Positions 22,509 to 40,586 of a DNA stretch of 63,415 nucleotides are shown one piece after another. Both the position numbers and the translations under genes were made by a program. Origin of the DNA: a bacterium. Lineage in GTDB: Bacteria; UBP15; UBA6099. The notes beneath the pieces are model-generated. The model was not told the DNA's origin. It searched no databases and worked only from the letters and a program-made list of their open reading frames with translations. How positions within the stretch are numbered: position 1 is the stretch's first letter; the number at the start of each line of letters is the position of its first letter. The DNA lies in contig JAKQPS010000050.1 in assembly GCA_029564595.1 (NCBI GenBank), positions 1 to 63,415 of the forward strand. Direction: 5' to 3'.

Positions 22509-24968
22509 ATGCGTCGGGGGGTGTCGCGGGTGGACAGTCAAAACTGGAGAGACCTTCCGCCGCAGGGCATGGATATAATCGCGGCGGTGGCGGACGCCGT
22601 CAAATCCGGCCGCGGGCTGGAATCCATTCTGGACAACATTATTGACCTCGTGCTTGAGATAATGAGCGCGGACGCCTGTTCGATATGGCTATATGAGCGG
22701 GGCGCGCTGAGGCTCAAGGCCGGACGCGGCCTGAATATGGCGGCCGCCGACGCGTCTTCAATCGAGCTTGGAGACGGGGTCACTGGCAGGGTCGGGCTGC
22801 ACAGGGAACCGATTGCCATCTCCGACGTGCGCGAGGACAACAGGTTCAAACCCATCCCCGAACTAGGCAATGAAGCGTATATGTCCATCCTCAGCGTCCC
22901 GATGACGGACCAAGACAGGCTGGTCGGCGTGCTTAATGTGAGGACGGTCGAGCCGTACAGCTACACCGAAACGGAGATGAAGTTCGCAACGTACATCGCG
23001 GCGCAGCTTGTCGGCGCGATACGCAACACGCAGTTGTACGAGGAAGTCATAAAAGGTTTCAGAGAGATAGCTATCATCCATCTGGTTAGCGAGATAATCA
23101 ACTCGGTTCGGGATATCGACGAGATGACGGCGGTGATAGCGCGGACGTGCGCGGAGCATCTTTCCACAAGGGGATGCGTGCTTAGGATGCTGGACCCGGC
23201 CACCGGGTTGTTGGAGATAAAAGGCTCGCACGGGGTTCCGGCGAGCGCGGCGGCCGCGGCGGCGCTTCGGATGGGGGAAGGCCTCGCGGGCAAGTGCGCG
23301 GCAGAAAAACGCGCAATACTGCGGAAAGACTTGCTGAACGATCCCGGGGAGTTCGCGGACGCTTTGGGCCTCGGCATGAAATCGGCCATCTGCGCGCCGC
23401 TGGTTGTTAAGGACAGGGTGGTCGGCACTCTCGGCGTGTTCGACAAGATGCCGGAGGACGGAGGCGAGCCGATTTCCTTCGAGGAGGAGGACGCGGGCCT
23501 AGTGACCATCATCGCGAATCAGGCGGCGATGGCCATTGAGAACGCCCGCTTATATGCCGAGAAGGACGCCCGCATCAGCGAACTTCAGCTCCTGTTGGAG
23601 ATAAGCAACATCATGCGCGGGACGCTCGATTTCGAGTCCCTGCTGTACATAATCCTCACCAGCGTGACGATGTCTCAGGGATTCGGGTTCAACCGGGCGC
23701 TGTTGTTTCTGCACGACGAAAAGAGCGGGACGCTCAAGGGGGAGATGGCGGTGGGGCCGCTGAGGGCGGCGGACGCCTCGCGGCACTGGCACTCGTTCAC
23801 GCCTAAAGGAAAGACCCTTCAGGAAGTGGTTCTCGAATACGGGAAGTTCAATCGCGAGGCGGGTTTCGAGATAGACATGCTGGTGAAAAAGATGTCGGTT
23901 CCGGTGAAGCCGGATAAAGGGGCTTTAGCTCGAACGGTGTTGGAAAGGACGTCGTTCAATGTGGCGGACTACAATCCGGCGGAGGGCGGAGAAGAGGCGG
24001 CGCTGACCGCGATGGGATTCTCAACTTTCGCGACTGTTCCGCTGATAGCGCGAGAGAAAGTGGTCGGGATAATGGTGGTGGACAATCTGGTGACTCGCGC
24101 GCCGATAACCGACGAGCAGCTTGAATTCGTGCAGCTTTTCGCCAACCAAGCGGCCAGCGTTCTGGAGACCAGCCGGCTGTACAAGAACATAGAGCAGGCG
24201 AACCGGAGGCTGGTCGACGCCAGAGAGCTGCTGGTGCGCTCGCGGACGCTGGCCACTCTCGGCGAGTTCTCGGCGGGCATAGCGCACGAGCTTCGCAATC
24301 CGCTGGTGTCTATCGGCGGTTTCGCCCGGCGGCTGGCCCGCAAACTTCCTGCCGACTCGGAGGAGGCGAGGCACGCACGCATCATATTCAATGAAGTCGA
24401 GGGCATGGAAAAGATACTCAGCCAGATACTTGAATTCGTGGGCGGCGCGAAAACGGAAACGCAGCAGGTGGACATCATAGGCGTGTTCGAACAGGTGTTC
24501 GTCCTGCTTCACGACGCGATAAACTCAAAGAACATATCCGTGAACACCGACTTCGACGAGCGCGCCCGGACGCTGCTTGTTGACGAAGTGCAGATGCGGC
24601 AGTTATTCATTAACCTTATTAAAAACGCGGTGGAGGCGATGAAGGGCGAGGGCGGCTCTCTCAGGGTGAAAACCACTCTGATGGAAACGGAAGAGGGCGG
24701 CGTCGGGCTTGAAATTAGCGACACCGGCGTGGGAATATCATCGGAAGACCTCGAACACGTGTTCGACCCGTTCTTCACCCGGAAAAGTTCAGGGACAGGG
24801 CTTGGGCTTTCCGTCTGCGCGAGAATCGTCGAGGGAAACCACGGCGGAAAAATGTTCATAGACAGCCGCAAGGGAGAGGGCACGAGCGTGCTGATATGGC
24901 TCCCGCCGGAGACGCTGGCGGGAGGCGAAGGCGGCGGCGGGCGGGGGCCGCTCTCCGCAAACGGATGA
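22509..24968 (+). CDS. Soluble sensor histidine kinase with three GAF domains
   Basis: An 819-residue protein with no transmembrane segment. Three GAF-type sensor domains are visible at about residues 25-175, 190-350 and 360-565; the second and third are joined by an apparent helix. The dimerisation box AGIAHELRNPLVSIGGFARR holds the phosphorylatable His near residue 593. The ATPase domain has the N box NLIKNAVEAM, DTGVGIS and FFTRKSSGTGLGLSV. It would sense a cytoplasmic ligand or redox state and phosphorylate a response regulator. None is adjacent; the DUF342-receiver and HPt proteins about 14 kb away are possible partners (inference). GTG codons at 22521 or 22530 are alternative starts. 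Confidence 0.9.
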   Translation: MRRGVSRVDSQNWRDLPPQGMDIIAAVADAVKSGRGLESILDNIIDLVLEIMSADACSIWLYERGALRLKAGRGLNMAAADASSIELGDGVTGRVGLHREPIAISDVREDNRFKPIPELGNEAYMSILSVPMTDQDRLVGVLNVRTVEPYSYTETEMKFATYIAAQLVGAIRNTQLYEEVIKGFREIAIIHLVSEIINSVRDIDEMTAVIARTCAEHLSTRGCVLRMLDPATGLLEIKGSHGVPASAAAAAALRMGEGLAGKCAAEKRAILRKDLLNDPGEFADALGLGMKSAICAPLVVKDRVVGTLGVFDKMPEDGGEPISFEEEDAGLVTIIANQAAMAIENARLYAEKDARISELQLLLEISNIMRGTLDFESLLYIILTSVTMSQGFGFNRALLFLHDEKSGTLKGEMAVGPLRAADASRHWHSFTPKGKTLQEVVLEYGKFNREAGFEIDMLVKKMSVPVKPDKGALARTVLERTSFNVADYNPAEGGEEAALTAMGFSTFATVPLIAREKVVGIMVVDNLVTRAPITDEQLEFVQLFANQAASVLETSRLYKNIEQANRRLVDARELLVRSRTLATLGEFSAGIAHELRNPLVSIGGFARRLARKLPADSEEARHARIIFNEVEGMEKILSQILEFVGGAKTETQQVDIIGVFEQVFVLLHDAINSKNISVNTDFDERARTLLVDEVQMRQLFINLIKNAVEAMKGEGGSLRVKTTLMETEEGGVGLEISDTGVGISSEDLEHVFDPFFTRKSSGTGLGLSVCARIVEGNHGGKMFIDSRKGEGTSVLIWLPPETLAGGEGGGGRGPLSANG

Positions 24969-26793: not shown

Positions 26794-27681
26794 ATGACAA
26801 AGACCGAACCCGCTCCCGGAACGCTGTACGTCGTGGCCACCCCGATAGGCAACCTAGAGGACGTGACATTGCGCGCGCTGAAGGTGCTCGGCGGGGCTGA
26901 TTGGATAGCCGCCGAGGACACTCGCCGGGGCAGAATACTGCTCGAACGCCACAAGATAAAAACGCGCCTTGTCAGTTTCGGCGGCGACATGGAGGAGAGG
27001 AAGACGCCGGAGCTGTTGGAACGGCTGGCGGCGGGAGAGAGCGGGGCGCTGATAAGCGACGCGGGAACTCCGGGCGCTAGCGATCCCGGCGCGCGGCTCG
27101 TCGCGGCGGCCGCCGCCGCTGGCATTCCCGTCTGCCCCATCCCCGGCGCGTCCGCGGTGGCGGCCGCGTTTTCGGTGTCCGGCCTTGAAAGCCCCCGGTT
27201 CGTGTTCGAAGGTTTTCTTCCTCGCTCCGGGGAAAAGCGAAGGCGCGCGCTGACCGCTTTAAAAAATGAAGAACGCGCTGCGATTGTTTTCGAATCGGCA
27301 AACAGGATGCCGGCAACGATGGCGGACTTGTTCTCGGAACTGGGCGACAGGCGGTTGTCGATAATGCGCGAGATGACGAAGTTCAACGAGGAAATCATAA
27401 GGACGACTCTCGGCGAGGCTGCCGGGGGCGCGGTTAAACTGAACCCGAAAGGGGAATATACTATAGTGATCGACGGCGCGCGGGAGCGGGACGCCTCCGC
27501 CGTGGACGACGACGGGGGCGAGCGTTTGCCGCGTCTTCTGAGGATACTGGCGGGAGCGGGGATGTCCGCCCGGGACGCGGCGAAGGCGGCATCCGAGTTT
27601 CTCGAAGTTCCCCGAAACAAAGCTTACGCGGAAGCGACGCGGCTGAATCAAAGCCCGGAGCCTGAGCGCGAGGAGGATTGA
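26794..27681 (+). CDS. rsmI: 16S rRNA (cytidine1402-2'-O)-methyltransferase
   Basis: A 295-residue SAM-dependent methyltransferase of the tetrapyrrole-methylase fold that modifies C1402 in the ribosomal P site. The family opening LYVVATPIGNLEDVTLRAL is followed by AAEDTRRGRILL, ALISDAGTPGASDPGARLV, PIPGASAVAAAFSVSG and FEGFLPRSGEKRR. The length is usual. The ribosome site is weak. The stop (TGA) overlaps a possible TTG start of the giant downstream gene. Confidence 0.93.
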   Translation: MTKTEPAPGTLYVVATPIGNLEDVTLRALKVLGGADWIAAEDTRRGRILLERHKIKTRLVSFGGDMEERKTPELLERLAAGESGALISDAGTPGASDPGARLVAAAAAAGIPVCPIPGASAVAAAFSVSGLESPRFVFEGFLPRSGEKRRRALTALKNEERAAIVFESANRMPATMADLFSELGDRRLSIMREMTKFNEEIIRTTLGEAAGGAVKLNPKGEYTIVIDGARERDASAVDDDGGERLPRLLRILAGAGMSARDAAKAASEFLEVPRNKAYAEATRLNQSPEPEREED

Positions 27682-27728
27682 AGTTCCGGAGCGGGCCGGT
27701 CAGCGCGGCCCCGATTCGGACTGCGGCG

Positions 27729-30700
27729 ATGAAAGCGGGATTCGGCAAAGCGGCGAAGTGGATTTCCGCGCTTGTTGTGGCGCTAGCCGCGGCGCGCGCG
27801 CTTTCGCCCGCGACGGCGCTAGCGGCGGTGTTCGAGCTTGAAGTCGTGGGCGGCGCGGCGGCGAGGGTGGGCGAGGTTGCCTACCTTAAGATAACGATGG
27901 AACAGGGGACGGACCCGGCCGTCGGCGCTCAGTGCTCGCTTAGCGCGGATCCGGCGATGATAGAGTTTTTGCCCGACCGCAACCTTTACGCCGCCGACGC
28001 TCTTTTCAGCATGGTCGAGAAATTCAAGGTGTCGCCTGAAACGGGCACAGTGGTTTTCCACGCGCGCGCAAACGAGCCTCCCGGCGGCAGGGTGGTTTTT
28101 CTCAAAGCTCCGTTCAGGATGAAAAGGCCGGGGGCGACGTTCGTGAGTTTCTCTTCGACCGCCTTGTTCGGGGAGGAGGAGAAGCGCGCTTCGAATCCCG
28201 GATATATCAGGTTGCTGGGATACGAAGGAGAGAGCGCCGACCCGCTGTTGTACGCGACGCTGGCGGGCGACAACGCGCTGCTGCGGACGGGCGCGCGGGA
28301 GAGCCTGTTCGAGACGTCCGCAGCCGGGCCGCGAGGCTCCTCGCTCGATCAGGAGCTTGCCCTTATGGATATGGGCATGCGCGCGCTAGACAAAGCCCAA
28401 GACGAAAAATCCGCGGACGTCGTCATCGGGTTCAGCAAGAGACAGGTCCGAATCGGAGTCAACCAGTGGACCCGGCTGGACATCGTGATAGACAAGTTCC
28501 CGGAATACGAAACCATGACCGGGATCGAGGTGACGATAAAATACGACCCCAGATATCTCATGCTGACTGACAGGCTGGGAAGGGAGACGACGTCCGTCGA
28601 AGTGCTTGAGCCGCTGGACGACATGACGCGCGCGCAGTTGCTCAAGATGATGGAGGAGATGGGGATTGCCGCTCCGCAGGACGCGGACGCGGACACGCTC
28701 CGCTCCATAATTGACGGCGCGCGAAGATGGGACTACCGCAGCATCTTCAGTCTGCCTTTCTCAAACAGAGTGGACAAGGCGAAGGGAGAGATTAAGCTAG
28801 CGCTTCTGGCCAACTTGACATCGGCGGCGGGAGAGACGAAGGCCCCTATGACGGTGGCCACGCTCCTGTTCAAAGGCCTGCGCGCGGGTCAGAATCTCCC
28901 GGTTGAGATGATCGACGCGATGGTCCCGGTGAGCAAAGGGACCCAGCACGTTCGAAACGCATTGATAACCATAGACTCCTCGCAGAAGGGTTGCGACGAG
29001 TCTCTTCCGCCTTCGCTTTGCACAGGCACTTTCAAGATGACCGGAAACATGCAGTTGACCCTCGACAGAGAGAGCATAGACAGGAAGGCGCTGGTTGGCT
29101 CCGGCAAAGAAGATCACACCACGGTGGACACCAAAGTTGAGAAGTTGAACCTGCAACAGGCGTGGAACGTCTATCTCGACGGGAGCTTTCGAAACGGGAT
29201 GACCGTGAATGGGAACTTGAGCGACAGCCCCGGCCAGTTGGAACAGCATCTGGACGTGGAAGTGGCGAGCAAATTCGGCACGGTCAGGTTCGGCGACTTC
29301 AACACGAACTTTGAAAGCGGAACGATGGTCAGCATGGACCGCCAGAAGATTAACGGAATGCAGTTCGACTACAAATCCGGGGGAGTGGAGTTCGCGGCTC
29401 TATTGGCCGAATCCAGATCGAGCACCAAGTTCTCCGCTCTTCCAGACGGGCAGAACATTACCGGCCCGTACAAATTCAACGCCGGCATGATAATCCCCGG
29501 GACGATTCACATATTCAAATCCGACGGAACCGAGATTCCTTCCTCGCAGTACACCGTCAATTATAGGACCGGAGAGATATACTTCGTCGAACCAGTCCCG
29601 TCCGGCGAAAAACGCTCGATAAGCTATGAAGAGACATCTTTCCTGTTCTCCACCGGAAACCTGCGGGCGTACAGGCTGTCATACAAAAAGACGGACGCGG
29701 CCGGAAGGAGCGACAAGTTTAAAGTTGGGGCGGTGTACCGTGTCGCTTCCGCTCCGAAAAGCACGTCGGTCATCCTCGACGGCGAGGAACTTGTGGATGT
29801 CTCTCACAGTTCTATCGAACAAGTTCCCTGCCCCTACAACTCCGCCAAGACCTGCGCGGTGGTGAACCTGACGCAGGCGTTTATAATGAAAGGCTCGGTG
29901 ATAGTTACGGCGGGAGTCAAAACGTACAATCCGAGCGTGAGCGGCGGGCCTGTCTACGCAAGCCACAGAAGCTACCTGAACGGAAAATTCCTCATAGAGA
30001 GAGGCGTTTCCGGAACAGGCATCACTGGACAGATAACGATTAAATACTCCTACTACAATCCGGAACAGGTTTCTTCTCAAGGATACATGGTCTACAGGAT
30101 ACCAGACAACGGGTTTGACACCGCGAGCAGTTCCACGATGGGAACGTACTGGTCGTGGCCGTCCAACGCGTTTCCCGGAAGCGAGACCGTCCTGCTGTCG
30201 AACACGGACTCATACGAGGACAAGTGGGACGACGTGGCCATCTGCAACGGGATGACTCAGGCGACAACTTCGGGAGGAACCACGATAGTTCGCTCTGACG
30301 ACACCGCGTTCTGTCCCGGAGACTACGACAAAACAATAGACAACTTGGGCGTATTCTATCAATTTTACGACGCCGGAACCGATTCGTTCCTGAAGTTTTC
30401 GCAATGGGTGAACCTGACAAACACTGATCCGAGATATAAGGATTACAAATATTTGAAGATAAGGTATTTCACCACGCCGATGGAATCCTCGGCGTCGTCG
30501 GAGTTCGACAAGACGGCGCTGGGGCTGACGGCGTCGGCCAACCTCGGCAAGAGGCTGACCGTCGAGGGAGAATACGCCCTCACCAACTCCGACTTGGCCG
30601 CGTCCTACGGAACGGGAGAAGAGACGATAACGGTGGACGCCGACTCTTTCTCTCTCGGCGGCACGGACGCGGGAAGCCTTTGCGTCTACGATGGAACCAA

Positions 30701-32498
30701 CGCCGCCGACAGGACGCTGACTTGCAACCTGCCGAACGGAAACATCGTCGGCGCGGTCAAGGTGTTCGTCCGCCACTGCGAACGGCTGGACGACAACCCG
30801 ATCAACTCCTGCCTTTGCGATCAAGAGGGTCTGGACCCCGGAAATGAATGTTACGACGCGACGACAAGAACGCATAGAATTAAGTATCAAGCCCAGACGT
30901 TCGAGGTCGGCAGAATTTATGTCAGGGAAGACAGGGGAGCCGGAAGAGTCGTTCTCGTGCGGCGCGCCGTCGGGTTTCTCCCCGGCGGTTTCACTTACGA
31001 CCTCGGCTTCGCCGACAGCGGCCATTATTTTCCCCGCAAGTTCGACCAACTCGAAGTCAGCTACATCTACAACCGCGTTCTCGGCTCGATCGTCGAGGGA
31101 AGCAAACACAACCTGAAAGCGAACTACAACGGAAAACTATTCAAAATGAGCCTGACGAAAGGCTTCACGGACCCCTTTTTCGACACTAGCGTGGGCGGCT
31201 CGAAAACGGCTCTTGCAAATACGGACTCGACTCTGTTGACTTTGAACACCACCCTGAAGAAATGGCAGTTGACTTTCACAAGAAACGAAACCGAGACGGG
31301 CAGCATAAACGCAAGCACTCTCGAACAGACCTCCCTGAGTTCGTCGGTGACCAAAGGCGTGGACGCCTCGTTTTCCGGTCGAAAACACATAAGAGCCTTT
31401 ACGATAAAGACGAGCATCGTTGACAGGATAAACGCGACCTCAATGGGCACGGCCTCGGAGACCGTGGCGGAAACCACGGAGAACTCGACGTCGGTGGCGA
31501 TGACGAACAGCTTCATGAAAGACCTTCTGGCGATAACTTCGGGGTTAAGCCTGCTGGACAAGAAGAACGCGGACAATAGCGATCTCGACACCAGCGCGAT
31601 AGGAAAGTCGCTGAACATAAACTTCAGGCCGCGCAGAAACATCGGGCTGATTATGGACTTTAAGGATAACCGCACGAGGTCTGAGCAGGAGTCCGTAAAG
31701 GACGTGGTGGGCCGCACGAACAATTACACGCTCAACTACAGGCCGCTTGAATTGATGGACATAAACGCCACGCTGGCCAGAAGCGCTTCCGGCAGCGCCG
31801 GCAAGACCACCGTTCAGGAAACATCGAACTACAACTTCAAAGTGTTAAAAGATTGGCGAAGGTTCAGCGGAGTCAACTTGACATTAAGCAAAACGCGCAC
31901 GCCGACTGAAACTTACTCAAGCTCAAGCGACTCCAGAAACTTTACTATGAGCGTCCGCCTCCCGTGGAAAATGTCTCTGGTTCCAACCTTAACTCAAAGC
32001 GTGTCGGGATCCGGCGCGGGATTGAACAAATCAAACACCCGGAATCTGCGGCTGACATATTCGCCGACAAGCGGGAAAATAAAGAGCGCAAGCTGGATAA
32101 ACAACAACCAGAGCAACGAGCAACCGGCCACGACAACATCCACGGGAACTAAAACAAGAACGGCAACGGACACGCTTTCGATGACAGTGGCCCCGTCTTC
32201 GAAAGGGACGGTCGCGCTCAGCTACAATAGAACGCCCGCAAGCTCCAACCATAAGTTCTCCATGACCGGCAACTACCTATGGCGAAACAACGTGAACTTG
32301 GGTTTCGACATGAGCCAAGACCATAAAGGCGGCGACATACCGAAGCGGACGACATCGCTGGGCTTGAACACGTCGTATCAACTCAACAGCTTGACAAGTT
32401 TCAGCCTGACTTTCAAAAGAGACTTGGTGAAGAGCGAGACGCCGGGAACCAAATCGACGACAAATCTAAGAGCGACGCTGAACACTAGGTTCGATTGA
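27729..32498 (+). CDS. Very large exported protein: cohesin-like N-terminus and outer-membrane beta-barrel-like C-terminus
   Basis: About 1589 residues with a signal peptide (KAGFGKAAKWISALVVALAA). Two cohesin-like beta-sandwich stretches follow (about 35-160 and 235-430; note TGIEVTIKYDPRYLMLTD). Next comes a region with VRFGDFNTNFESGTMVSMDR and GEIYFVEPVPSG, resembling domains of large SprA-like or gliding-type surface proteins. The last 600 residues are alternating polar/hydrophobic strands rich in Thr and Ser, with charged turns, ending LRATLNTRFD, as in a large outer-membrane barrel. It could be a surface assembly or secretion channel. ATG 27729 is chosen for the signal peptide; a TTG at 27678 in a TTGA overlap with rsmI is the alternative. 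Confidence 0.75.
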   Translation: MKAGFGKAAKWISALVVALAAARALSPATALAAVFELEVVGGAAARVGEVAYLKITMEQGTDPAVGAQCSLSADPAMIEFLPDRNLYAADALFSMVEKFKVSPETGTVVFHARANEPPGGRVVFLKAPFRMKRPGATFVSFSSTALFGEEEKRASNPGYIRLLGYEGESADPLLYATLAGDNALLRTGARESLFETSAAGPRGSSLDQELALMDMGMRALDKAQDEKSADVVIGFSKRQVRIGVNQWTRLDIVIDKFPEYETMTGIEVTIKYDPRYLMLTDRLGRETTSVEVLEPLDDMTRAQLLKMMEEMGIAAPQDADADTLRSIIDGARRWDYRSIFSLPFSNRVDKAKGEIKLALLANLTSAAGETKAPMTVATLLFKGLRAGQNLPVEMIDAMVPVSKGTQHVRNALITIDSSQKGCDESLPPSLCTGTFKMTGNMQLTLDRESIDRKALVGSGKEDHTTVDTKVEKLNLQQAWNVYLDGSFRNGMTVNGNLSDSPGQLEQHLDVEVASKFGTVRFGDFNTNFESGTMVSMDRQKINGMQFDYKSGGVEFAALLAESRSSTKFSALPDGQNITGPYKFNAGMIIPGTIHIFKSDGTEIPSSQYTVNYRTGEIYFVEPVPSGEKRSISYEETSFLFSTGNLRAYRLSYKKTDAAGRSDKFKVGAVYRVASAPKSTSVILDGEELVDVSHSSIEQVPCPYNSAKTCAVVNLTQAFIMKGSVIVTAGVKTYNPSVSGGPVYASHRSYLNGKFLIERGVSGTGITGQITIKYSYYNPEQVSSQGYMVYRIPDNGFDTASSSTMGTYWSWPSNAFPGSETVLLSNTDSYEDKWDDVAICNGMTQATTSGGTTIVRSDDTAFCPGDYDKTIDNLGVFYQFYDAGTDSFLKFSQWVNLTNTDPRYKDYKYLKIRYFTTPMESSASSEFDKTALGLTASANLGKRLTVEGEYALTNSDLAASYGTGEETITVDADSFSLGGTDAGSLCVYDGTNAADRTLTCNLPNGNIVGAVKVFVRHCERLDDNPINSCLCDQEGLDPGNECYDATTRTHRIKYQAQTFEVGRIYVREDRGAGRVVLVRRAVGFLPGGFTYDLGFADSGHYFPRKFDQLEVSYIYNRVLGSIVEGSKHNLKANYNGKLFKMSLTKGFTDPFFDTSVGGSKTALANTDSTLLTLNTTLKKWQLTFTRNETETGSINASTLEQTSLSSSVTKGVDASFSGRKHIRAFTIKTSIVDRINATSMGTASETVAETTENSTSVAMTNSFMKDLLAITSGLSLLDKKNADNSDLDTSAIGKSLNINFRPRRNIGLIMDFKDNRTRSEQESVKDVVGRTNNYTLNYRPLELMDINATLARSASGSAGKTTVQETSNYNFKVLKDWRRFSGVNLTLSKTRTPTETYSSSSDSRNFTMSVRLPWKMSLVPTLTQSVSGSGAGLNKSNTRNLRLTYSPTSGKIKSASWINNNQSNEQPATTTSTGTKTRTATDTLSMTVAPSSKGTVALSYNRTPASSNHKFSMTGNYLWRNNVNLGFDMSQDHKGGDIPKRTTSLGLNTSYQLNSLTSFSLTFKRDLVKSETPGTKSTTNLRATLNTRFD

Positions 32499-34942: not shown

Positions 34943-36379
34943 TTAGAATTTGATCGCCGAGCCGTCCATGCTTGAATCGGAAATGTTGAAGAATGACAAC
35001 ACGGTGGGGGCGATGTCGATGATGGAAGCTTGTTCGACGACGCGGCGGGGGATGCCGGGGCCGGAGAAGACGATAGGGATTCCCGCGTTTTCGGATGAGA
35101 GGCCGCCGTGCGTGCGCGAGTCCGGGTTGTCCGATATGTAGCAGCCATGTTCGGAGGCGGAGAATAGGACGACGTCTCCGCTCCTCGGACAGTCCAGCCC
35201 CCGGATGTTGTCGATGGCTCGCGGGAACCTGTCCAGCTTGTCCCAGAAGAAATCGTCCGGCGCTGACACGGAGCCGCGTTTGTAGATGAAGTAGCCGGAG
35301 CCGGGAGCGGCTCTGACGAGGATTATGGAGTTGGAGTCCTGTCTGCCGGCGGAATCTTCGGTGCGGCAGACGGATTCGACGGCTTCGGCGAGAGGAAGGA
35401 CGTCGCGTTCGAGGGATGGCGCGGCGCCCCAGTCTCCGGAAGCCCCGTCGAGGGCGTAGAACTGCGCGCAGCCCCCGATGATAGACACGTGGCAGTTGCG
35501 GCCGGGCAATAACTTTGCGCCTAGCGACGCGCGGAAACCACGAGCCTCAAGCGACTCCCGCAGCCTGCCGGTGGTTATCATGTTCGAGCTTTGGAGCCAT
35601 GTCTGGCCGTGGTCCGAGCAGAGGACGAGTCGCGTGGAATCGCGCGCGCCCGACTGTTCCAGCAACCGGACGAGCGAAGATATATGCGGGTCGACGGCTT
35701 CTTTCAGGTAGGCCGCTTGGCCCGCCGCGCCCGTGTGGTGGCACCATGCGTCAAGCCCGCTGAAATAGAGCGTGTAGATGTTAGGCAGTCCGTTGCGGCG
35801 GATATCCGAAGCGGCAGCTTGCCATGTGCGCAGGTCGATCCGTTTGAAATCCAGCAAGCCTTTCGAACTGAGGGCGAAATACACCATATCGCCGCGGTTA
35901 GGCCGCACCCATCTGCCGGCTCCCCGGCTGACTTGGTTGAAGACGACCGCGCTGGTCAGGCCGTGGTCGGCCGCGATTTCGTATATCGTTCGAGCGGGGG
36001 GATACAGGCTGTCGTTTATCAGCCCTCTCGGATTCTTCATCGGCAGCAGAAGGGTGGGCCAGCCGAACAGCTTGTAACCGAACACCCCCGCCGCCGTGTC
36101 CGCGCTGGTGAAGTCGAGGACGCGCGCGGGCGCGGCGGAGCGCTCCACCCATCCGTTTCCGACTATGCCGTGCCGCCTGACTTCCAGCCCCGTGAACAGA
36201 GAAGTCTGCGCAGGCAGAGTTTCTGTGGGATAAACCGTCGAGCCGAACCTGACTTTGGCTCCGTCGGCGAACGCCTCGGCAAATCCGGGCAGTTCCCCGT
36301 CGGCGAGCATGTTGTAGAAAACCTCGCGCTTGAGCGCGTCCACAACCACTATGATGACGGAAGATATGGGCCGGGACAT
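34943..36379 (-). CDS. Alkaline-phosphatase-superfamily phosphodiesterase (NPP/PglZ-like)
   Basis: A 478-residue member of the alkaline phosphatase superfamily similar to nucleotide pyrophosphatase/phosphodiesterases. The first metal Asp is in IIVVVDALKREVF and the nucleophile Thr is in YPTETLPAQTSLFTG. Later metal ligands appear in YFSGLDAWCHHTG, LCSDHGQT (Asp-His) and DSRTHGGLSSENAGIP (His). No signal peptide is present, so a cytoplasmic phosphodiesterase or phosphonoacetate hydrolase-like role is possible. The start at 36379 overlaps the stop of the small Cys protein (TGATG), showing translational coupling. Confidence 0.8.
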   Translation of the reverse strand: MSRPISSVIIVVVDALKREVFYNMLADGELPGFAEAFADGAKVRFGSTVYPTETLPAQTSLFTGLEVRRHGIVGNGWVERSAAPARVLDFTSADTAAGVFGYKLFGWPTLLLPMKNPRGLINDSLYPPARTIYEIAADHGLTSAVVFNQVSRGAGRWVRPNRGDMVYFALSSKGLLDFKRIDLRTWQAAASDIRRNGLPNIYTLYFSGLDAWCHHTGAAGQAAYLKEAVDPHISSLVRLLEQSGARDSTRLVLCSDHGQTWLQSSNMITTGRLRESLEARGFRASLGAKLLPGRNCHVSIIGGCAQFYALDGASGDWGAAPSLERDVLPLAEAVESVCRTEDSAGRQDSNSIILVRAAPGSGYFIYKRGSVSAPDDFFWDKLDRFPRAIDNIRGLDCPRSGDVVLFSASEHGCYISDNPDSRTHGGLSSENAGIPIVFSGPGIPRRVVEQASIIDIAPTVLSFFNISDSSMDGSAIKF

Positions 36380-36567
36380 CACGCGTCTCCGGCGGGGCCT
36401 GTTTTTTTCCGGTCGCGTTTTTTGGGGACGGGTTTGACGTTGCCCGCCGAATCGAACAAATCGAGGTTGCGGGACGCCCTTTCGTATTTGGGGCAGGAGA
36501 CCACGTTCACGCCGGAAGGCTGTTTGCAGTCGCGAGCGCATGAAGCGCACACCGGATTGACATTCAT
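36379..36567 (-). CDS. Small four-cysteine protein coupled to the phosphodiesterase
   Basis: A 62-residue basic protein: MNVNPVCASCARDCKQPSG then VVSCPKYERASRN, followed by a Lys/Arg-rich tail. The CxxCxxxC plus later Cys pattern suggests a zinc or iron-sulfur knuckle. GGAGG lies 10 bases before the ATG, and the stop overlaps the phosphodiesterase start by one base (TGATG). I do not recognise a named family. Longer in-frame starts would run into the divergent promoter and are unlikely. Confidence 0.6.
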   Translation of the reverse strand: MNVNPVCASCARDCKQPSGVNVVSCPKYERASRNLDLFDSAGNVKPVPKKRDRKKTGPAGDA

Positions 36568-36654
36568 TTTCCGCGCCTCCGCGCCGCCCGGCGGCTCGAC
36601 CGAAACCCTTAGAACGCGGGGTTTCGACGCCGCGCCGCGCGCGTCAAATACTAT

Positions 36655-36683
36655 TTTACACCCGCGCGCGCTTTCTGTATAAT
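36655..36683 (+). promoter_or_regulatory. Strong sigma70-type promoter of the DUF342/HPt/HD-GYP operon
   Basis: TTTACA and TATAAT are separated by exactly 17 bases, giving a leader of about 95 bases before the start at 36786. It diverges from the small Cys protein gene at 36567. Confidence 0.7.
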
Positions 36684-36785
36684 AACTTATCATGTTCTCG
36701 AAGAGAATTAATTCAACTGAAAATGAGCCGCCGGGCGCGGTCGCAGCAATCGCGCGGTCGGTCTCGCCCACGGAGGTCTTCTTCT

Positions 36786-38567
36786 ATGGCTAAAAACGCC
36801 GGTCCCGGCGGGGCTGTCGAGATAGAGATATCCCGCGACCATTTCAACGCCTACCTTCATATCAGAAGCAAGATCCCGCCCGCCGCCGAAGAGGTCTTCG
36901 AGGTCCTCAAGGCGGAGAAGATCACGAGCGGCATCAAGAGCGCGGACAAGCTCAGGATCTTCCTCGAAAACATGGAACTGTATAACAACACGCTCATTAT
37001 CGCCGCCGGACAGCCGTTCACATACGGCACGGACGCGCGGATAGAGTACATGTTCGAGACTGACGACCGCACCCGCATGGAAGACGAGCTTGCCGGAGCC
37101 GACTCCGTGGATTTCAGGTCGATCGGCTCCATCGCCAGCGTCAGGAAGGGCGACGTGATAGCCAGAAAGATACCGGCCACGCAGGGCGAGGCGGGCCTGA
37201 CAGTGTTCGGGCTGAAGCTTCCCGGCGAGTGGGGAATGGACGTAACGCTCAAGGCCGGCAAGAACGTCTCGATGTCCGAAAACAAACTCGACTTTATCGC
37301 TGACATAGACGGCGCGCCGATAGTTTCAAAAGGAATGATCAGGGTCGATCCCGTTCTGATAATCGAGGGGGATGTCGACTACTCGACAGGCAACGTGGTC
37401 TTCGACGGAACTGTGGCGGTGAAGGGCAGCGTGCTGGATGGGTTCACGGTTGACGCGAGGGGCGACGTGATAGTGGAGAACACCATACAGAGCGCGCGAG
37501 TCAGCGCCGGCGGCGACATCGTGGTCAAACGCGGCATCCTCACGCGCGGCAAAGGCATAGTGACGGCCGAGGGCAACATATACGCCAAGTTCATTGAGAA
37601 TTCGACCGTCGAGTGCGAGAGCAACGTGGTGGTAGAAAACGCGATTATGAACAGCTTCGTCAGCGCGAACGGCAAGGTTCTGGCGATGACGAACGAGGGC
37701 GCGATAATCGGAGGCAGGACGATGGCCTTCGACCGCGTCGCCTGCCGCAACCTCGGAACCGCCACGCACCCGACCACAGTCGTCCAGTGCGGATACCGGT
37801 TCGAGGTCCAGCGCAAATACCTTGAAGGCGTCGCCAAGCTACAGGCTGTTCAGAAACAGATAAAAGAGCTTCAGAAGAACTATGAATTCGTGTCGAGGAC
37901 GAACTTCGACGACATAGACAGGCTTGGCGAAATCCGCGGCAAGATGATGAAGATGCTAAAAATTCAGGACCAGATGAAGGAAGAGTTGACTGATTTGAAC
38001 GCGACGCGGATATTCAACCAGTTCGCGATGGCCGAGGTGGAGCAGGCGGCGTATCCGGGCGCGGTCATATTCATCGGGGACGCGCGTTTCAACGTAAAAA
38101 AGGAAACGAAGTTCGCCAGCTTCAAATGGGACGCCGAGGAGAAGACGATTTACATGTCTTCATTCGACGAGACGGCGCAGGGCATGAGGAAGTCCGGAGC
38201 GCGCGCCAAGACCGTCCTTGTCATCGACGACTCGAAAGCGGTGAGGAAAACGCTGCGGCTCATCGTTGAAAAGATGGGCCTGCGCGTTGCGGGAGAAGCG
38301 GAAGACGGCTCGGAAGGCGTCGAGCTTTACAGGCAGCTCCGCCCCAGCCTCGTCACCTGCGACATAGCGATGATCAACATGAACGGCGTGGAAACTCTGA
38401 AGGCGATTAAAAAAGACAATCCGAAGGCCCGCGTGGTGATGATTTCTTCCGAGCGGGACAAATCGCAGATACTCGACTGCGTGATGGCCGGAGCAAAGGA
38501 CTACATCCTGAAGCCTTTCGTGCCGAGCCGGGTCGTCACTGTAATAAGAAGCGCGTTGGAAAACTGA
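36786..38567 (+). CDS. DUF342 (FapA-type) protein fused to a C-terminal receiver domain
   Basis: A 593-residue cytoplasmic fusion. Residues about 10-370 match FapA/DUF342: an N-terminal part (IPATQGEAGLTVFGLKLPG, the family GxxG-type motif) and a right-handed beta-helix of repeated strands (GDVDYSTGNVVFDGTVAVKG). A coiled coil follows (about 340-420). Residues about 470-593 are a complete receiver domain: acidic pair VLVIDDSKAVRKT, phospho-acceptor Asp in LVTCDIAMINMNG (about 525), MISSE, and the conserved Lys in DYILKPF. DUF342 proteins are linked to surface motility and polymer assembly; phosphorylation could switch it. CGGAGG nine bases before ATG 36786 decides the start. HPt and HD-GYP genes follow. 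Confidence 0.88.
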   Translation: MAKNAGPGGAVEIEISRDHFNAYLHIRSKIPPAAEEVFEVLKAEKITSGIKSADKLRIFLENMELYNNTLIIAAGQPFTYGTDARIEYMFETDDRTRMEDELAGADSVDFRSIGSIASVRKGDVIARKIPATQGEAGLTVFGLKLPGEWGMDVTLKAGKNVSMSENKLDFIADIDGAPIVSKGMIRVDPVLIIEGDVDYSTGNVVFDGTVAVKGSVLDGFTVDARGDVIVENTIQSARVSAGGDIVVKRGILTRGKGIVTAEGNIYAKFIENSTVECESNVVVENAIMNSFVSANGKVLAMTNEGAIIGGRTMAFDRVACRNLGTATHPTTVVQCGYRFEVQRKYLEGVAKLQAVQKQIKELQKNYEFVSRTNFDDIDRLGEIRGKMMKMLKIQDQMKEELTDLNATRIFNQFAMAEVEQAAYPGAVIFIGDARFNVKKETKFASFKWDAEEKTIYMSSFDETAQGMRKSGARAKTVLVIDDSKAVRKTLRLIVEKMGLRVAGEAEDGSEGVELYRQLRPSLVTCDIAMINMNGVETLKAIKKDNPKARVVMISSERDKSQILDCVMAGAKDYILKPFVPSRVVTVIRSALEN

Positions 38568-38587
38568 AAACACAGGGCGGCAGCATC

Positions 38588-38944
38588 ATGAGCGAAGACT
38601 TTTTCACCGAGGGGGAGAAAATGGACATCAGAGAGATAGCGCTTGAGGAAATTGGGGAGATAGTGGACGGGATAAAGGCCGACTGCGCGCGGCTTGAGGG
38701 CGGTTGCGACGCGGCGGAGTTCGTCAAGTCGGCCGCGATAAGGGTGCACACCATCGCCGGGAGCGCCGCGCTCGCCGGCCTTATGGAAATCAGCAAGGTG
38801 GGCGCGGGGGCCGAATCGTTCATCAGAAAATACGAAGGCTCGGACGCCGCCCTTCTGCTGGAAAAATTCAGGGTTTGCGCCATGGAGATTGAGGAAATGC
38901 TCCGCGACGCCCGCCAAGACGCGCGAGGTGAGAACAATGTTTGA
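38588..38944 (+). CDS. Histidine phosphotransfer (HPt) domain protein
   Basis: A 118-residue, all-helical single-domain protein. The phospho-His lies in IRVHTIAGSAALAGLMEISK (near residue 53), matching the HxxKGxA-type HPt helix, though the usual Lys is Ala. HPt proteins shuttle phosphoryl groups between receiver domains. It sits 20 bases after the DUF342-receiver gene and overlaps the HD-GYP gene by eight bases, so all three are one operon. An in-frame ATG at 38621 with GGGGGAG just upstream is a possible alternative start. Confidence 0.75.
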   Translation: MSEDFFTEGEKMDIREIALEEIGEIVDGIKADCARLEGGCDAAEFVKSAAIRVHTIAGSAALAGLMEISKVGAGAESFIRKYEGSDAALLLEKFRVCAMEIEEMLRDARQDARGENNV

Positions 38945-40586
38945 CAAAAATCAGTCCGCTCTGGACCTTGAAATCGAACTCAAACTAGCGAACTTCAAAC
39001 TGGACATAGTTCAGGAAATCACCCGCATGCTCCCGCGCTCCGAGACTCCCCTTCAGACGCTCAATTTCATCATGGACCGCATATTCAGCCTAGTCGAGAT
39101 GGAGGGCGCTTCCATACTCCTGCTCGACGCTTCAGGCGACAAACTCGAATTTTTTATGGTCAGAGGCGAGAAAGAAGGCGAACTCACCGGCGTCAAAATG
39201 GACGCCGCAAAGGGCATAGCCGGAAAAGTCATCGCCTCAGGCGAAACCGTCCTCATCGAAAACACCGAAAAAGACAGGGACTTCTACAAAACCATAGACG
39301 AGACGGTCGGCTACAGCACTCGGTCTCTAATCGCCGTGCCCCTTAAATCCGGAGACAGAGTGATAGGAGTGCTCGAAGGCGTCAATATCGACGACGAGGA
39401 AGTTAAAAGTCCCGCCCAGTTGGCAGAGGTGTTCGAAAGCCTCGCCGGGGTCATCTCGATGACCCTCGAAAACGAGCGCCTCATAGAGGGCATGAAGAAT
39501 GACGTCGAAAGAACGCAGCGGCTCTTGGACATCAGCCACGCCGTCAACAGCAGTCTTTCTCTGTCGGACGTTCTGTCGGCTGTGATGAACGCCGCAAAGG
39601 ACATACTCGAAGCAGAGGCCGCCTCGCTATTGCTGTTTGACAACGAAAAAGAGAACTTGGTTTTCCATGTCGTCACAGGCGAAAAGAAACGCGATCTGGA
39701 GAAAGTTTCAATCTCAGCCTCGACGGGCATAGCCGGGGCCTGCGCGACGTCGGGCGCGCCCATCATCTGCAACGATGTCCATAGCGATTCCCGATTCGAC
39801 GGTTCGCTGGATAAAAAGACGGGATTCGTAACCCGCTCCGTGCTGTGCGTTCCTCTGCGCTCGGACAACGAGGTTTCAGGCGTGCTGCAGGCGATAAACA
39901 AAAAAGGGGAGACGGAGTTCGACGAAGACGACCTTGCCCTGCTGGACATGATATCGAGCGAGTCCGCAGTCGCCGTAAGGAACTCGTTGCTCATGAACCA
40001 GAAGAACGAGATGTTTATGGGCGCGGTCGCCTCGCTGTCGAAAGCCCTTGAATCAAAAGACCCTTGCCACGCGGGGCACGCCGAACGGGTGGCCAAACTT
40101 GCCGAATGCGTCGCCGGCTTCATGCGCCCGGACGATATCGATCTTCGGGAAATACTGCGCGTCGCCGGATTGACACATGACGCCGGAAAACTCGCTGTTC
40201 CCGACGCAATTCTGCTTAAATCATCCGCAGTCGATTCCTCGGAAATGGATATTATAAAGAAACACTCCGCGCTGTCATGCGAAATAATAAACCCCATCGG
40301 CGTTGAGAAAGAAGTCAGCGCCGCCGTCCTCCGCCACCACGAACGTTGGGACGGAGCCGGATATCCCGAAGGGCTTGCCGGGGCGGATATCCCCTTAGCG
40401 TCCCGCATTCTAGCCGTCGCGGACGCCTTTGACGCCATGACTTCCCCGCGCCCGCACAGAGAAAAGCTTTCCACCGCCGAAGCGGTCGAGGAAATCAAGC
40501 GCAACTCCGGCTCTCAGTTCGACCCGGCGGTGGTCGAATCGTTCGTCATAGCTTGGGAAAACGACATGCTCGATATCGCAAAATAG
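38937..40586 (+). CDS. GAF-GAF-HD-GYP protein, probable cyclic-di-GMP phosphodiesterase
   Basis: A 549-residue cytoplasmic protein. A short helix leads into two GAF sensor domains (about 25-190 and 195-365), which share a GIAGKVIASGET/GIAGACATSGAP-type strand and a SLIAVPLK/SVLCVPLR strand. An HD-GYP domain follows (about 365-545) with HAGHAERVAKLA, the metal pair in LTHDAGKLAVP (near 414), and HHERWDGAGYPEGL carrying the GYP signature (near 466). HD-GYP enzymes hydrolyse c-di-GMP to GMP or pGpG. AGGTGAG precedes ATG 38937. It is the last gene of the DUF342-REC/HPt operon and ends before a convergent gene. Confidence 0.92.
   Translation: MFDKNQSALDLEIELKLANFKLDIVQEITRMLPRSETPLQTLNFIMDRIFSLVEMEGASILLLDASGDKLEFFMVRGEKEGELTGVKMDAAKGIAGKVIASGETVLIENTEKDRDFYKTIDETVGYSTRSLIAVPLKSGDRVIGVLEGVNIDDEEVKSPAQLAEVFESLAGVISMTLENERLIEGMKNDVERTQRLLDISHAVNSSLSLSDVLSAVMNAAKDILEAEAASLLLFDNEKENLVFHVVTGEKKRDLEKVSISASTGIAGACATSGAPIICNDVHSDSRFDGSLDKKTGFVTRSVLCVPLRSDNEVSGVLQAINKKGETEFDEDDLALLDMISSESAVAVRNSLLMNQKNEMFMGAVASLSKALESKDPCHAGHAERVAKLAECVAGFMRPDDIDLREILRVAGLTHDAGKLAVPDAILLKSSAVDSSEMDIIKKHSALSCEIINPIGVEKEVSAAVLRHHERWDGAGYPEGLAGADIPLASRILAVADAFDAMTSPRPHREKLSTAEAVEEIKRNSGSQFDPAVVESFVIAWENDMLDIAK

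Follow-up and report, generated by a model that had tools for sequence, protein, structure and literature searches.

What does a histidine phosphotransfer (HPt) protein do when it is encoded between a FapA-family protein that carries its own receiver domain (REC) and an HD-GYP protein? This question was raised by a locus in a 63,415-nucleotide stretch of bacterial DNA (contig JAKQPS010000050.1, lineage UBP15; hereafter the window), in which Pfam analysis identified three tightly packed genes on the + strand (36786-40586) encoding a FapA-receiver fusion, an HPt protein and a GAF-GAF-HD-GYP protein. The best explanation of this arrangement is that the three are a single operon and act as a single signalling module with a FapA-family output. 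Because the operon is kept in related genera and joins a FapA-receiver protein, a phosphate carrier and an HD-GYP protein, this FapA assembly protein is probably under the direct control of signalling kinases. The module is real, conserved and apparently restricted to its lineage, and it combines known parts in a way not found described in the literature searched, in which none of the six papers containing DUF342 as a word deals with response regulators according to its title; the eLife papers on CpaM/ZitP, considered as a DUF342 lead, were rejected since the match had been to the prefix of another DUF number.

The FapA-receiver operon

The features of the operon are the following:

36655..36683, + strand: sigma-70-type promoter, TTTACA-N17-TATAAT (11/12 consensus positions)
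36786..38567, + strand: FapA-receiver fusion, 593 aa, open frame extendable to 36723 (Pfam FapA_N, FapA and Response_reg)
36816..37331, + strand: FapA_N domain (PF20250, 131 bits against a curated cut-off of 27, 3.4e-38)
37350..38132, + strand: FapA (DUF342) beta-solenoid and long helical hairpin, residues 339-407 (PF03961, 200 bits against a cut-off of 31, 7.1e-59)
38214..38546, + strand: CheY-like receiver (PF00072 Response_reg, 96 bits, 2.2e-27)
38361-38363, + strand: codon of the putative phospho-acceptor Asp526 (receiver alignment)
38588..38944, + strand: single-domain HPt protein, 118 aa (PF01627, 28 bits against a cut-off of 24.6)
38747-38749, + strand: codon of the putative phospho-acceptor His54 (HPt alignment)
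38937..40586, + strand: GAF-GAF-HD-GYP protein, 549 aa (Pfam, two GAFs and HD_5, 1e-38)
40035..40532, + strand: HD-GYP domain (PF13487, 133 bits)

Pfam and the coordinates confirmed the three genes of the preliminary description of this DNA, with 20 nt between the FapA-receiver and HPt genes and 8 nt (38937-38944) shared by the HPt and HD-GYP genes. The start codon of the first gene is likely the ATG at 36786, behind GGAGG, as the ATG at 36723 merely lengthens the open frame; position 36655 is the first base of the promoter -35 box. The strong promoter that had been proposed was also borne out, both by its match to the consensus and by its recurrence, with the same hexamers and N17 spacing, upstream of the orthologous operon at loci L037, L038, L039 and L040 in three families. 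All five operon copies having upstream sequence (the window and these four loci) were preceded by TTTACA-N17-TATAAT, and beyond them the motif occurred only once more in 492 kb, both strands counted. Outside the hexamers, the upstream DNA of L039 and L040 was unlike that of the window. On the minus strand of the window (36653-36681), back to back with the operon promoter, a weaker promoter-like sequence (TATACA-17-TAAAAT) was observed, which could drive a divergent pair at 34943-36771 encoding a small Cys-rich protein and a type I phosphodiesterase.

The first protein is, as had been noted, a complete receiver fused to a FapA/DUF342 body, with the correction that the receiver lies C-terminal of the FapA part, after a disordered linker (residues 459-473). 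The AlphaFold2 order was FapA_N, solenoid (predicted local distance difference test, pLDDT, mostly 80-92), long helical hairpin, low-confidence linker and receiver. The structure solved nearest to the receiver was Thermotoga maritima CheY (4qyw; 42% identity, template modelling score 0.96 normalised to CheY). Residues D481, D482, D526, S554 and K576 were invariant across nine FapA-REC proteins, and the receiver active site was intact; the Asp lies in an intact pocket, one of the points on which the relay of the preliminary description depended.

By its sequence, the protein is Flagellar Assembly Protein A (DUF342) and not the FapA of the Pseudomonas amyloid. The surface polymer formerly suggested as an output consequently does not follow, and the amyloid Fap reading was rejected. 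Known FapA biology points to the assembly or placement of a flagellum or perhaps a pilus. According to PMC6877527, FapA of V. vulnificus and V. cholerae binds EIIA-Glc only when the latter is dephosphorylated, and according to PMC11312691, in V. vulnificus glucose dephosphorylates EIIA-Glc and FapA is sequestered away from the flagellated pole. The window protein shares both FapA domains with the Vibrio one, which is thus already known to be under phospho-control in trans. However, its phospho-switch is a fused CheY-like receiver, with a proposed His-Asp input instead of the sugar phosphotransferase system, and the fusion may be regarded as a covalent counterpart of the Vibrio FapA-EIIA-Glc control.

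Conservation of the operon and origin of the fusion

The operon was compared in seven genomes of the order, from that of the window (G000) to G006; the organism itself appears to be known from metagenome assemblies alone. The full trio was present in six of them (G000-G005), spanning three genera, and the three-gene order that the preliminary description had expected to be conserved was thus found. Identities to the window proteins were 95-99% in G001, G002 and G003, of the same genus, 54-69% for the two large proteins in G004, of another genus of the same family, and 52-59% in G005, of another family; FapA-REC orthologues within the order were 59-98% identical. The HD-GYP orthologues of G001-G005 lie immediately behind the HPt gene. 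In G006, which belongs to a third family and is just 78% complete, FapA-REC and HPt genes are followed by a convergent gene, with no adjacent HD-GYP gene, and the best HD-GYP match, located elsewhere, is 34% identical. In each of the seven genomes, the gene immediately following FapA-REC is the HPt gene. The genes downstream differ, encoding an ADP-ribosylglycohydrolase in the window and a ribosome-associated S30AE protein plus LptF in L037, so that the trio persists next to a changing downstream flank. Within the genus, the ratio of nonsynonymous to synonymous substitutions (dN/dS) was 0.04-0.06 for FapA-REC, 0.12-0.14 for HPt and 0.07-0.09 for HD-GYP, which indicates purifying selection on all three genes. 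Taken with the gene order kept across genera, these values (0.04-0.14) argue that the arrangement is not due to chance.

The nine FapA-REC proteins formed one clade (support 0.99), from which a single origin of the fusion is deduced. This clade splits into che-linked proteins (1.0), HPt-linked proteins (0.99) and that of locus L045. Of the two che-linked clusters, L043 comprises a methyl-accepting chemotaxis protein (MCP), CheR, CheD, CheY, CheB, FapA-REC and CheX, with CheA on the same contig, and L044 comprises MCP, CheR, CheD, CheY, CheX and FapA-REC with a nearby HD_5 protein; CheY of both clusters and the CheR, CheD and MCP of L044 were identified by sequence and not by Pfam. In L045/L238 (3705-12074 of contig C106 of G005), the FapA-REC gene is divergent from a second FapA gene, and this pair is followed by genes for a hybrid kinase (PAS-HisKA-HATPase-REC-REC) and a REC-HPt protein. 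From its gene content, L238 may hold all the components of a relay next to FapA-REC.

A profile search of 386 genomes across the domain found full-length FapA-REC fusions in this order alone, and no fusion stood among the best-ranked matches listed for 393 genomes of another FapA-rich phylum; as these samples are finite, they leave room for rare fusions elsewhere. A widespread fusion was unsupported, since a pattern-based contig scan gave mostly plain CheY proteins and its sole FapA-REC matches were on two contigs of metagenome-assembled genomes from the same lineage, one match being a fragment. Unfused pairings were found in L148 (1300-3312; an unrelated phylum), where 12 nt lie between a FapA gene and an independent receiver gene downstream of it, and in L019, where a receiver gene lies about 14 nt ahead of FapA. 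Both lend weak support to a functional FapA-receiver link outside the order.

Possible phosphate donors of the receiver

The HPt protein had no Pfam domain besides Hpt. It was predicted as a four-helix bundle (helices 8-37, 42-62, 66-81 and 87-112; pLDDT 88.6), so the fold proposed for it earlier holds, and its closest solved match in both fold and sequence was the P1 domain of T. maritima CheA (1tqg). Between genera the HPt identity was just 27-31%, with the helix-2 motif HTI[ATG]G[ST]A retained. It could be argued that this protein is a non-phosphorylated adaptor which binds and tunes the receiver, in the way of some degenerate Hpt/receiver proteins, and its low Pfam score, fast divergence and lack of a Lys at H+3 would fit such a role. 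However, His54, Gly58 (H+4) and Glu76 are invariant in the HPts of the seven genomes despite 27% identity, as expected if the His is used, and we consider an adaptor quite improbable.

At H+3 the seven HPts have A, T or G and at H+19 A, M, S or I, where 1tqg and the CheA encoded on contig C137 of the window genome have Lys and His, respectively. The Lys at H+3 and the His at H+19 help CheA to phosphorylate its own P1; they are a feature of kinase-linked P1 domains and are not required of all HPts. Because of this role, their loss would be more in keeping with a transfer protein than with a CheA substrate.

In the window genome, the Hpt Pfam model and a family-specific profile both yielded this HPt protein and two CheA P1 domains, which makes it the sole single-domain HPt detected there. 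The broader claim that it is the only HPt protein of the lineage was narrowed, as the siblings G001-G003 additionally encode a REC-HPt protein, whose gene adjoins that of a hybrid kinase. The genome encodes 25 HisKA kinases, and 8 of the 25 have a C-terminal receiver (hybrid kinases). The elements of a phosphorelay from hybrid kinase through HPt to response regulator, the last with its Asp pocket intact, are accordingly all present; the window differs from known phosphorelays in that the output is a FapA assembly factor instead of a DNA-binding or enzymatic domain and that the hybrid kinase is outside the operon. A relay in which a hybrid kinase would feed the HPt protein and the latter the FapA receiver is the best reading, to which we give an even chance. 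It is supported by the presence of a sole single-domain HPt alongside eight hybrid kinases in the genome, by the sister FapA-REC locus of G005 that adjoins hybrid kinase and REC-HPt genes, and by the Vibrio FapA, which obeys the phosphorylation state of its partner EIIA-Glc.

An HPt protein that is the only one of its kind in a genome could also serve many receivers. The three genes might then be a co-regulated set with no direct relay, in which the HPt serves other regulators and the FapA receiver is fed by small phosphodonors or an unrelated kinase; that the HD-GYP gene is dispensable in G006 agrees with this. Nevertheless, the constant position of the HPt gene behind FapA-REC, even when HD-GYP is not adjacent, and the sister locus, where another FapA-REC gene lies near one for an HPt protein, make such a set rather improbable.

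The nearness of both the receiver and the HPt protein to chemotaxis proteins raised a further alternative, in which CheA phosphorylates the FapA receiver and the HPt either drains phosphate or shuttles it among the eight hybrid kinases and CheA. The two sister clusters that are chemotaxis operons, with the CheX phosphatase, favour it, as does the fact that T. maritima CheY and CheA P1 are the nearest solved folds. The nearest relative of the HPt protein in its own genome was likewise the P1 of the CheA on C137 (2e-12). This contig carries a second chemosensory locus (L206 and L198) with a GGDEF protein, a receiver, CheR and CheA, resembling a diguanylate-cyclase-linked Che system. Unlike in chemotaxis, the CheY-like domain of the window is fused to FapA, the HPt has neither a kinase core nor the two CheA P1 site residues, and no che gene adjoins the operon: no CheA, CheW or MCP gene was found among the genes scanned at 34.4-43.1 kb of the window. 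In addition, helix alpha1 reads xVRxT(L/M) and the D+4 residue is I or V in the HPt-linked receivers, in contrast to the che-linked sister receivers, which retain the CheY pattern (FMRxKL and DITMP). Helix alpha1 of receivers is a region that contacts partners, and since the differences sit where partner contacts lie, both groups look adapted to different donors. Altogether, control by CheA seems unlikely, although it is the alternative that we take most seriously.

Several observations weigh against the relay from hybrid kinases onto FapA. The operon itself contains no kinase gene; the nearest kinase and sole HisKA one in the window (22509-24968) has three GAFs, lacks a receiver and is not a hybrid. 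The HPt sequence diverges fast and is without the Lys of CheA P1. The HD-GYP gene is not essential to the unit, given that G006 retains FapA-REC and HPt without it, and in the HD-GYP protein a Cys replaces the third-metal Glu of its nearest solved relative (a Tyr in the orthologues). Finally, a separate canonical FapA is encoded in the flagellar operon of the window genome, with FlhA, FlhF-like and FlhG-like proteins and a sigma factor, and because of this the window copy may serve another structure. As PilT/PilC-type genes are also present in the genome, the target machine could be either the flagellum or a pilus.

As for the remainder of the window, the kinase at 22509-24968 and the HD-GYP protein have distantly related GAFs, and a 1606-aa open frame at 27678-32498 had no Pfam match at 1e-4.

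The HD-GYP protein and the proposed mechanism

The third protein keeps the metal ligands H381, H414-D415, H443, H467-H468 and D496 and the GYP motif (475-477). Its nearest solved protein was PmGH of Persephonella marina (4mcw, E 9e-59, aligned over residues 189-537), with which it shares GAF plus HD-GYP and the seven metal ligands. The window protein differs from PmGH in an extra N-terminal GAF and in the Cys at the third-metal position, which resembles two-metal HD-GYPs. Judged from these residues, it is a probable cyclic di-GMP (c-di-GMP)-degrading enzyme, although some HD-GYPs favour 3'3'-cGAMP. The window genome also had three PilZ domains and seven matches to GGDEF, of which four keep GGEEF intact. 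The association between FapA and HD proteins recurs, because two other FapA paralogues have an HD_5 gene adjacent or close by: in L049 (contig C40 of the same genome, 4123-7238) an HD_5 gene is 33 nt upstream of a receiver-less FapA paralogue, and the HD_5 protein of L044 lies near FapA-REC. Matches hinted at recurrence of the L049 pair in G002, G005 and G006.

According to the relay that we favour, a sensor hybrid kinase encoded elsewhere would donate phosphate, via its own receiver, to the HPt protein at His54, and the HPt protein would donate it in turn to Asp526 of the FapA-attached receiver. Phosphorylation would alter binding by the FapA solenoid and helical hairpin, and the altered contacts would switch the assembly or placement of a polar flagellum (or type IV pilus). 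Made together with these proteins, the GAF-GAF-HD-GYP protein would respond to a GAF signal of its own by lowering the cyclic-dinucleotide level, favouring the motile state. This c-di-GMP arm is plausible but weaker than the relay. The gene order, the HPt fold and the Asp pocket of the preliminary description stand, so that none of the conditions set there to refute the relay applies; phosphotransfer, its direction, phosphodiesterase activity on a dinucleotide substrate, the effects of both arms on FapA and their crosstalk or joint switching are inferred. A more extended proposal, held more tentatively and at somewhat short of an even chance, is a lineage-specific relay in which one HPt gathers the signals of several hybrid kinases, FapA-receiver is the output and HD-GYP tunes c-di-GMP for the same decision; the FapA-receivers of the lineage would have diverged into one branch driven by CheA and another driven by HPt, with their receiver interfaces rewired.

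FapA-family proteins are widespread and poorly understood, the best-studied case being that of Vibrio, and a natural FapA-receiver fusion with an HPt protein next door offers a direct handle on FapA function through one Asp or His. CheA-linked and HPt-linked branches arisen from one fusion event would illustrate how the choice of His-Asp partners is rewired in nature. If the relay is true, an assembly factor joins the few response-regulator outputs that act neither as transcription factors nor as enzymes.

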